Shown here piece after piece: positions 24,821 to 41,136 of a DNA stretch of 64,000 nt (positions are counted from its first letter, which is position 1; every line of letters begins with the position of its first letter). The translations under genes and the position numbers were made by a program. The notes under the pieces were generated by a model, which was not told where the DNA came from, ran no database searches, and saw only the letters and a program-made list of their open reading frames with translations. Source of the stretch: Phycisphaerae bacterium (lineage in GTDB: Bacteria > Planctomycetota > Phycisphaerae > Phycisphaerales > UBA1924); the NCBI GenBank assembly GCA_002706885.1, contig PAKY01000006.1:1-64000 (forward strand). The letters run 5' to 3'.

Positions 24821-24848
24821 TTGACACGAGCCGGCGGGGTTCTACGCT
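24821..24848 (+). promoter_or_regulatory. Sigma70-type promoter for the S10-spc-alpha cluster
   Basis: TTGACA at 24821-24826 and TACGCT at 24843-24848 with a 16-nt spacer. The -35 is a perfect consensus and the surroundings carry few other coding signals. The ribosomal supercluster begins 280 nt downstream. Confidence 0.65.
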
Positions 24849-28849: not shown

Positions 28850-28879
28850 TAGGCGGGGCCTGACGCGAGGACAGAGCTC

Positions 28880-29440
28880 ATGAAGCTTCGACCCGATCAA
28901 CTCAAGAGCCGCGCCGAGGAGGCCGGTCTGACCGTCGAGCAGCTCGCCCAGGCGGTCTCCCGCACGGGGCTGAGCGGCGATTCGGCGCTCTCCGCCGTCC
29001 GCAACTGGCTCGGCGGGCGTGATCATCCGCGCTGCAAGAAGGCGGACATCGAGCGGCTGGCCGACGCGATCGGCTGCGAGGTCACCGACATCGCTCGGTT
29101 CGTGAGCAGCGTGAACCACCACCGTGGCAGCCCGCAGAAGGCCCGCCTCGTGGTGGACATGATCCGCGGCAAGGCGGCGTATCAGGCCGACGAGATGCTC
29201 CAGTTCTGCCACAAGCGTGCCGCGGTCAACGTCCGCAAGGCGCTGCTCGCGGCGATGGCTGACGCGCAGGAGGCCGGCGCCGATCGGGACGCGCTGGTCG
29301 TGGCCGAAGCGAGCGTCGATGGCGCGCAGCACATCAAGCGGTTCCGCCCGAAGGACCGCGGTCGCGCTCACTCGATCCTGAAGCAGACGAGCCACATCAC
29401 GGTTGGATTGCAGGAGCGCCCGACGGCGTCGAGGTATTAA
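28880..29440 (+). CDS. rplV: 50S ribosomal protein L22 fused to an N-terminal XRE-like helix-turn-helix
   Basis: 186 residues against the usual 110-120. The uL22 core starts at about residue 76 (SVNHHRGSPQKARLVVDMIRGK) and ends with the conserved FRPKDRGRAHSILKQTSHITVGL. The first ~75 residues are extra. They read as an XRE/Cro-type HTH: LKSRAEEAGLTVEQLAQAV (first helices), then AVRNWLGGRDHP and KADIERLADAIGCEVTDIARF, matching the family's LAxxxGxSxxxIxxWExGxxxP...LxxLAxxLGVxxxxL pattern, with a few residues inserted before the recognition helix. No in-frame start between the two parts is obvious, so the fusion looks like one protein. uL22 lines the exit tunnel; its extra domain would lie on the outer surface or bind nucleic acid. 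Confidence 0.92.
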   Translation: MKLRPDQLKSRAEEAGLTVEQLAQAVSRTGLSGDSALSAVRNWLGGRDHPRCKKADIERLADAIGCEVTDIARFVSSVNHHRGSPQKARLVVDMIRGKAAYQADEMLQFCHKRAAVNVRKALLAAMADAQEAGADRDALVVAEASVDGAQHIKRFRPKDRGRAHSILKQTSHITVGLQERPTASRY

Positions 29441-34389: not shown

Positions 34390-35127
34390 ATGGCGGAAGT
34401 GCTCGACGAAAGCTCGAATCTCGAGAGCCAGACGGTCAACATCTATCGCTCCAGCGCGACGGTGAAGGGTGGCCGACGGTTCAGCTTCGGCGCGCTCGTC
34501 GTGGTGGGCGATCACCGCGGCAAGGTGGGCTACGGCTACGCGAAGAGCGGCGAAGTCCCCCTCGCGATCGAGAAGGCTCAGAAGTATGCCCGGCGGAAGC
34601 TCTTCCGTCTGCCGATGACCGGCAAGACGATCCCGCACGAGGTCGAGGGTCGGTACAGCGCGACCAAGGTCCGACTGATCCCAGCGAGCCCCGGTACGGG
34701 CGTCGTCGCGGGAGGCACCGTTCGCGCCGTCCTCGAGATGGCAGGCGTGACCGACTGCCTGACGAAGTGCTACGGCTCCACGACCAAGCTCAACGTTGTG
34801 AAGGCCGTCTTCGACGGTCTCGAGCAGCTCCGCATGCGTGAGGATGTGGCCGAGCTTCGCGGCGTGAGCATCGACACCACCGACATCGAAGAGCGGGTCG
34901 AGCGCGGCCAGCGCTTCATGCCCTCGACGAGCGGCGAGAAGATGCGTGGTCCGGTCAACACGATCGGTCAGGAGCGGCGTGGTGGTCGCGGCGGTCGTGG
35001 TGGCCGCGGCGGACCGCGTGGCGGCGGTCGTGGCCGTGGTCCTGGCGGACCGGGCGGCCCCGGTGGTAACGATCAGGACTCCAAGCCCGCCGAGGCGAAC
35101 GCCGGCGGCGACTCGTCGTCGAGCTGA
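34390..35127 (+). CDS. rpsE: 30S ribosomal protein S5 with RGG-repeat tail
   Basis: 245 residues against about 165. The double-stranded RNA-binding fold (VKGGRRFSFGALVVVGDHRGKVGYGYAK, then LIPASPGTGVVAGGTVRAVLEMAGV) occupies ~15-165. From about residue 196 the chain turns into R-G-G repeats (196-226) and a Ser/Glu-rich tail. Arginine-glycine tails of this kind bind RNA in many proteins. No rpmD follows; rplO comes next. Confidence 0.97.
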   Translation: MAEVLDESSNLESQTVNIYRSSATVKGGRRFSFGALVVVGDHRGKVGYGYAKSGEVPLAIEKAQKYARRKLFRLPMTGKTIPHEVEGRYSATKVRLIPASPGTGVVAGGTVRAVLEMAGVTDCLTKCYGSTTKLNVVKAVFDGLEQLRMREDVAELRGVSIDTTDIEERVERGQRFMPSTSGEKMRGPVNTIGQERRGGRGGRGGRGGPRGGGRGRGPGGPGGPGGNDQDSKPAEANAGGDSSSS

Positions 35128-40374: not shown

Positions 40375-40437
40375 TCGCCTTAGGGAATTCGCAAGTGAGC
40401 CCCGCGTACTGAACGAGCGGGGTGGGAGAAGTGAGCC

Positions 40438-41136
40438 ATGCGCCACCGCAAGGCCGGATACAAGCTCGGCAGGACCCCGTCGCACCGCAGGGCGATGCTT
40501 CGCAACATGGCCGCGAGCCTGTTCGAGCACGGCCAGATCACCACGACGATCCCCAAGGCGAAGGCTCTCCAGCCGTTCGTCGAGAAGATCGTGACCAAGG
40601 CCAAGAAGGGCGGTCTGCACAACCGCCGCGTCGTGGTCTCGATGCTCGGGGGTGACCGCAACTCGTTCGCGTGGAGTCACGTCCCCGCGGGCGCCACCGA
40701 GGACGAGCGGAGCGCCGTCGAGAACCAGCGCGAGCGGGTCGAGGCGTTCTTCGATATCCCGCCGGCGGATAGCATCGAACGCAACCGCTACGGCGAGCTC
40801 CGCAAGGCGCCGAAGCTGGTTCGCCACATCTTCGAGAACGTCGCGCCGCGCTTTGACGATCGCGAGGGTGGCTACACCCGCATCGTCAAGCTCGGCATGA
40901 ACCGCCTCGGTGACGGTGGCGAGCTCTGCGTGATCCAGTTCGTCGGAGCTGAGGAGGGCCCCGAGATCGGTGGTCGCCTCAGCACCCGTCGCCGGACCGC
41001 GGATCGTCGCACGGCCTTCGCCGCCAAGCTCCGCAAGGAGTCCGGCTCCAAGGCGCCCGCGGCAGAAGCGCCGAAGGCCGAAGAGCCCGCCGCCGAAGAG
41101 TCGGCTGGCGGCGACGAGACCACCTCCGAAAGCTGA
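40438..41136 (+). CDS. rplQ: 50S ribosomal protein L17 with insertion and acidic tail
   Basis: 232 residues against about 120. MRHRKAGYKLGRTPSHRRAMLRNMAASLFEHGQI is the usual start and GGYTRIVKLGMNRLGDGGELCVIQFVG the usual end, but an insert of about 55 residues (from ~70 to ~125, including FDIPPADSIERNRYGEL) splits them, and an Ala/Glu-rich tail (APAAEAPKAEEPAAEESA) ends it. Last gene of the supercluster, 15 bp before the convergent hisN stop. Confidence 0.95.
   Translation: MRHRKAGYKLGRTPSHRRAMLRNMAASLFEHGQITTTIPKAKALQPFVEKIVTKAKKGGLHNRRVVVSMLGGDRNSFAWSHVPAGATEDERSAVENQRERVEAFFDIPPADSIERNRYGELRKAPKLVRHIFENVAPRFDDREGGYTRIVKLGMNRLGDGGELCVIQFVGAEEGPEIGGRLSTRRRTADRRTAFAAKLRKESGSKAPAAEAPKAEEPAAEESAGGDETTSES

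Follow-up and report, generated by a model that had tools for sequence, protein, structure and literature searches.

The uL22 protein encoded at positions 28880-29440 (+ strand) of the window, the 64,000-nucleotide stretch of Phycisphaerae DNA analysed as a whole, is extended at its N-terminus by a rigidly attached helix-turn-helix (HTH) domain of the XRE type. We put at about one in two the probability that this domain resides in the ribosome, held against the 23S rRNA at the uL22 N-terminus through contacts that we infer. No description of a uL22-HTH fusion was found in the open-licence literature, and the fusion extends much more broadly than the window alone could show. The gene, rplV, begins with ATG and encodes 186 residues. 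It belongs to an ordinary S10-spc cluster, where the genes for uS19 and uS3 flank it, and is the sole uL22 gene in the 3.57 Mb assembly.

The C-terminal part of the protein is a complete uL22 core (residues 73-186; 29096..29437, + strand), in frame with the HTH domain as the first-pass annotation had proposed. It matches Pfam Ribosomal_L22 (PF00237) over residues 79-177 (E 2.7e-29) and passes the equivalog cut-off of TIGR01044 (rplV_bact) with 88.1 bits against 73.65, a family also matched by all 67 relatives aligned. The predicted structure of the fused protein contains the uL22 fold with its long hairpin and, when the whole model is searched against the PDB with Foldseek, bacterial uL22 chains are returned at E-values of 1e-8 to 1e-10. 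Ordinary Phycisphaerae uL22 begins MAY, MAF or MAW, and at the junction the aromatic third residue of this start corresponds in the alignment to aromatic residue 74 of the fused protein. The added domain is therefore made of residues 1-72; the earlier reading placed the HTH correctly at the front of the protein, while its extent of ~75 residues has to be shortened to this boundary.

The HTH domain (28880..29095, + strand) matches Pfam HTH_31 over residues 7-73, scoring 30.1 bits in isolation (6e-7, cut-off 27) and 25.7 bits, just below the cut-off, within the whole uL22 chain. HTH_31 is also matched by 32 of the 67 aligned relatives, with others matching HTH_3, HTH_26 or HTH_19, and 39 of the 67 match a phage transcriptional-regulator family. 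AlphaFold, run on the fused protein with a 67-row alignment, yields a mean pLDDT of 94.8 and a pTM of 0.87, and the HTH domain by itself reaches a pLDDT of 94.1. Helices are assigned by DSSP to residues 5-14, 19-26, 33-44, 54-64, and 68-71. The third, recognition-type helix (residues 33-44 in the models; 28976..29011, + strand) is preceded by a turn which, in our own alignment, is ~7 residues longer than that of the classical HTH motif, and the last helix passes straight, with no linker, into the first predicted uL22 strand (residues 72-81). Foldseek comparison of the domain with the PDB returns XRE proteins at a probability of 1.00, with E-values from 0.02 upwards; values that weak are usual for so small a fold. 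VIA gives a Z-score of 10.5 for C.Csp231I and of ~8-9.7 for SinR, P22 c2, lambda repressor, and 434 Cro. The HTH_31 match, the structure prediction, and the XRE matches in the PDB thus bear out the assignment of the N-terminal part as a genuine Cro/C1-type HTH. Domains of this type bind DNA in a sequence-specific manner, usually as dimers on a palindrome. The structural matches of the domain, however, also include the enzymes HppE and HEPD, which possess an XRE fold, so the fold alone is no proof of DNA binding.

The upstream start codon is the true one, and the domain is translated and under purifying selection. A Shine-Dalgarno-like GAGGA, read directly from the sequence, stands 8 nt before the ATG (28867..28871, + strand). 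Among 75 fused genes, 67 display a Shine-Dalgarno match of at least four bases at the HTH start, as compared with 25% at random points within genes. In the window gene, the only in-frame start codon seen near the core is the GTG at codon 75, which could in principle begin a normal uL22. Inner start codons near the core occur in 42 fused genes, but a Shine-Dalgarno-type site accompanies just 8 of these 42. In close pairs, dN/dS amounts to ~0.07-0.2 for the HTH domain and 0.01-0.15 for the uL22 core. These ribosome-binding sites and the codon-level selection exclude a start at the uL22 core, the inner start that the first-pass annotation had named as its own possible undoing; the two other outcomes that it named, no HTH match and absence of the extension from relatives, did not come about either. 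More generally, an artefact (misassigned start codon, assembly chimera, or fortuitous similarity to HTH domains) is a very improbable explanation: besides the translation signals and the selection, several Pfam HTH models agree with the structure, and the identical fusion is found in well over 100 genomes from independent assemblies, some of them closed.

In the 67-sequence alignment, Asn42 and Trp43 (29003..29008, + strand) are invariant, and Arg or Lys occupies position 41 in 56 sequences (84%). Leu22, Gly30, Ala36, Ala39, Pro50, and Ala61 are nearly invariant, while positions 34, 35, and 37, at the N-terminal start of the recognition helix, are free to vary. A mean net charge of +4.3 to +5 makes the domain mildly basic. 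By alignment to the classical motif, Trp43 would be a core residue, and in our alignment Asn42 falls on what we take to be its counterpart, the base-touching Gln33 of 434 repressor. Because Asn42 is invariant, Arg/Lys41 common, the start of the helix variable, and the domain basic, this pattern suggests a constant ligand touched by Arg/Lys41 and Asn42, and counts against the domain as padding.

That ligand would most readily be rRNA. Since the fused protein is the sole uL22 and uL22 is essential, every 50S subunit should carry the HTH domain and, the domain being joined to the N-terminal strand without a linker, it would be held near the N-terminal site of uL22. It would then sit on the solvent side of the 50S subunit near the 23S helices H2, H24, H46, and H19. 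In Cutibacterium acnes, an N-terminal extension of uL22 anchors H2, H24, H46, and the tip of H19 of the 23S rRNA (PMC10085706). Binding would involve a basic, partly conserved surface around the recognition helix (Arg/Lys41, Asn42, Arg28, Lys7/Lys9), and the domain might help uL22 to assemble or steady the surface near the tunnel exit. A resident role is consistent with the single gene copy, the wide distribution of the fusion, the pLDDT of 94.8, the low dN/dS, the invariant Asn42, and the basic charge. A profile of the domain, moreover, hits only rplV and no free copy, as would be expected of a ribosomal part; repeated capture of regulators would look different. For a Cro/C1 HTH working on ribosomes, Mbf1/EDF1 with its dock on 18S rRNA offers a precedent (PMC7486125). 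Against this reading, the positions of Asn42 and Arg/Lys41 are those used by DNA-binding XRE members too.

The 23S rRNA of fused and unfused lineages, its genes being located through a conserved segment, was compared for changes tracking the fusion. No insertion, deletion, or clear base signature was found, nor does any block length or helix follow the fusion, which rejects a fusion-specific 23S change. A loose filter let through five single columns, one of them near H19/H20 (position 331), which is no more than kinship and chance may give. As no co-evolved rRNA site is visible, the contact, if any, would use features common to fused and unfused 23S rRNA. Replacement of bL17 or bL32 by the HTH domain was likewise rejected, both proteins being present in all 24 genomes tested. 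Other ribosomal proteins show peculiarities of their own. The domain of bL17 (gene at window positions 40435-41136) is spread over ~150 residues in the window's family (f1 hereafter) and some other families, as against ~112 in others, which implies a large insertion that does not track the uL22 fusion. bL32 (G000:C1:21254-21394, and other f1 genomes) is diverged in f1, scoring 38-47 bits as compared with 54-72 in related families. uS5 (window positions 34390-35127) ends in an RGG-rich C-terminal tail; such tails are patchy in f1, f4, f2, and f5 and absent from most other families looked at. An apparent uS5-uL15 fusion in one relative proved to be an alignment running across a stop codon.

The extension was expected to recur in relatives, and does so widely. 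It is found in all 68 sampled genomes of f1, whose public records carry the names Phycisphaerales, Phycisphaeraceae, or Planctomycetota MAGs. One further record, L123 (RHKP01000006.1), labelled "Cyanobacteria bacterium", holds an f1-type uL22 (65% identity); by its rplV it belongs to Phycisphaerales, and the name looks wrong. In the same order as f1, the fusion is present in f4, with five intact genes seen. In a sixth f4 gene (G019; L064 / L205), a one-base frameshift interrupts the HTH part of rplV, which could reflect either a sequencing error or a genuine ongoing loss. Four other families of this order (f2, f3, f5, and f6) are unfused, and their uL22 starts as Met-Ala-aromatic, precisely at the position of the junction. 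Outside this order, seven families of the class (f7, f8, f9, f108, f109, f111, and f112) carry the fusion, and the remaining sampled families possess a uL22 without the HTH.

In each fused genome, the HTH-domain profile hits only rplV (E below 1e-17), and a search of 120 genomes of the class and 294 of the phylum revealed nothing strong outside rplV that could be a free-standing copy. With a profile built on f1 sequences only, the domains of f4 and of the other-order families are found at E-values between 1e-7 and 1e-20, and both halves of the frameshifted G019 gene at ~5e-5; at other loci in 30 genomes, the best E-value of this profile was 0.08, with none below. Because matches across families are that strong and nothing comparable occurs elsewhere in those genomes, sequence comparison defines the domains of all fused families as one homologous subfamily, found on uL22 only. 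Independent capture of common regulators is rejected on the same grounds. Relatives of the domain were also sought in viral contigs, where none was found; there was one weak phage hit.

In a tree of 18 ribosomal proteins, all fused families outside the order of f1 and f4 group into a single clade (support 100) that is distant from these two, with unfused families placed between the fused groups. The tree of the uL22 core places f1 with f3 and f4 with f2, and sets the other-order clade apart at 100%. As this tree contains no fused-only clade and agrees with the 18-protein tree, transfer of the whole gene between lineages is rejected. The tree of the HTH domain recovers f1, f4, and the other-order clade each as a group. 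Since the uL22 core follows the species tree, a single old fusion in the ancestor of the class, followed by about seven losses, is favoured, and the fusion is probably as old as the class. Plain parsimony counts fewer steps for three gains than for one gain with some seven losses, but three gains would need the same domain to arrive at the same junction from a source now gone from these genomes. It is also possible that only the N-terminal part was transferred between lineages. The domain would be useful yet dispensable, as it was apparently lost in several lineages of the class.

The first-pass annotation also proposed that the chimera controls its own gene cluster, a claim that the region upstream of rpsJ does not sustain. 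This region yields promoter elements and no operator-like repeats. The S10 operon promoter, TTGACA-N16-TACGCT (24821..24848, + strand), is conserved in 57 of 73 f1-family leaders, in which the consensus reads TTGAC-N17-TAYGCTTC (in the window, the spacer following TTGACA is 16). In these 57 promoters, the strongly conserved positions are the -35 and -10 hexamers and a short initiation-type element, a GGCTC-like start after the promoter that has similar CTC or CTTT counterparts in unfused families. Perfect inverted repeats occur in 3 of 56 f1 promoters as compared with 3.6 in shuffles, hence without excess, and no conserved palindrome, operator, or leader target was found in the rpsJ upstream region, the one promoter region examined. 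A hairpin, GGCGA-NNN-TGAAT...ATCGAAC, with compensatory changes at 10 of its 18 pairs, does occur in the leader preceding rpsJ at 8 of 80 fused loci, all from one subgroup (L137:1248-1317, L128:1255-1323, L135:1243-1312, L144:1325-1394, L154:1330-1399, L155:1251-1319, L156:1310-1379, and L167:1314-1382). Within this subgroup only, it may serve as a cis-regulatory leader of the S10 operon. When its covariance model was run against the remaining 72 fused loci, 40 additional loci, and the window, no copy was detected, which rejects the hairpin as a general target of uL22, and no Rfam leader was found.

These data bear on how the proposed residence of the domain at the 23S rRNA compares with other possible roles. 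DNA or RNA binding by the HTH is possible, and XRE domains are the classical domains of repressors. Autoregulation is also common among ribosomal proteins. Free uL22 might accordingly bind a DNA operator or the RNA of the S10 leader through its HTH and shut down its own cluster, as the covarying hairpin of eight fused genomes might suggest; the promoter conservation confined essentially to the -35, -10, and start regions, the inverted repeats at shuffle level, the restriction of the hairpin, and the presence of a single HTH with no recognisable dimerisation part make this doubtful. The same low credence is given to the wider idea that uL22 carries a working sequence-specific reader of nucleic acid, with free or ribosome-bound uL22 sensing or controlling DNA or RNA sites. 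If true, such a reader would tie ribosome supply or position to gene expression. Slightly less doubtful, though still unlikely, is that the partner of the HTH surface is a protein (a factor of nascent chains, of assembly, or of the exit rim) instead of a nucleic acid. The tunnel exit is ringed by four proteins, uL22 among them (PMC5071890), and both the XRE folds built into HppE and HEPD and the variable residues 34, 35, and 37 of the recognition helix would suit a docking platform, whereas a nucleic acid would better match the basic charge of the domain and its conserved Arg/Lys41-Asn42. The domain might finally be an old, well-folding accretion, tolerated and with no role beyond stabilising uL22. 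It evolves faster than the core and many families of the class do without it; purifying selection, two invariant residues, and universal retention in f1 leave little room for such a neutral ornament.

Few ribosomal proteins are as conserved as uL22, whose variation is usually confined to short tails. Ribosomal proteins with lineage-specific added domains are known; the unusual point here is that a universal protein carries an entire XRE HTH. A repressor-type domain fixed across a large family constitutes a natural experiment in ribosomal domain gain, for which the closely related unfused families provide ready-made controls, and its predicted site near the tunnel exit is a docking area for factors.

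The fused protein shares its core, operon position, single copy, and fold with ordinary bacterial uL22 (TIGR01044, PF00237), which lacks the 72-residue folded HTH standing before the usual Met-Xaa-aromatic start. The NCBIfam family PRK12279 (L22/unknown domain fusion) likewise associates uL22 with an extra domain, but only its uL22 part, profile positions 13-108 of 311, matches the window protein, which scores 42.8 bits against an equivalog cut-off of 526. With the XRE repressors (SinR, P22 c2, 434 Cro, C.Csp231I, and DdrO; families HTH_31, HTH_3, and HTH_26), the uL22 domain has in common the five-helix fold and an LA and NWxxGxxxP-type motif, besides matches in sequence and structure. It differs from these repressors by its fusion to a ribosomal protein, its longer turn between helices 2 and 3, and the lack of a separate dimerisation part, and its DNA binding is putative. 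The uL22 extension of C. acnes is also a sequence added at the N-terminus, although much shorter than 72 residues and with no HTH described (PMC10085706). In archaea and eukaryotes, MBF1/EDF1 also attaches to ribosomes by rRNA contacts of a Cro/C1 HTH, which docks between h16 and h33 of the 18S rRNA (PMC7486125). MBF1, however, is a separate protein of the small subunit with a different partner domain, and is described as absent in bacteria; the window protein has no N-terminal MBF1/zinc-ribbon, its HTH beginning at residue 2 and being followed by uL22. The likeness is loose and no sequence kinship is claimed, and the fused uL22 would be a bacterial counterpart of MBF1 and its ribosome-binding XRE domain in function, if not in ancestry.
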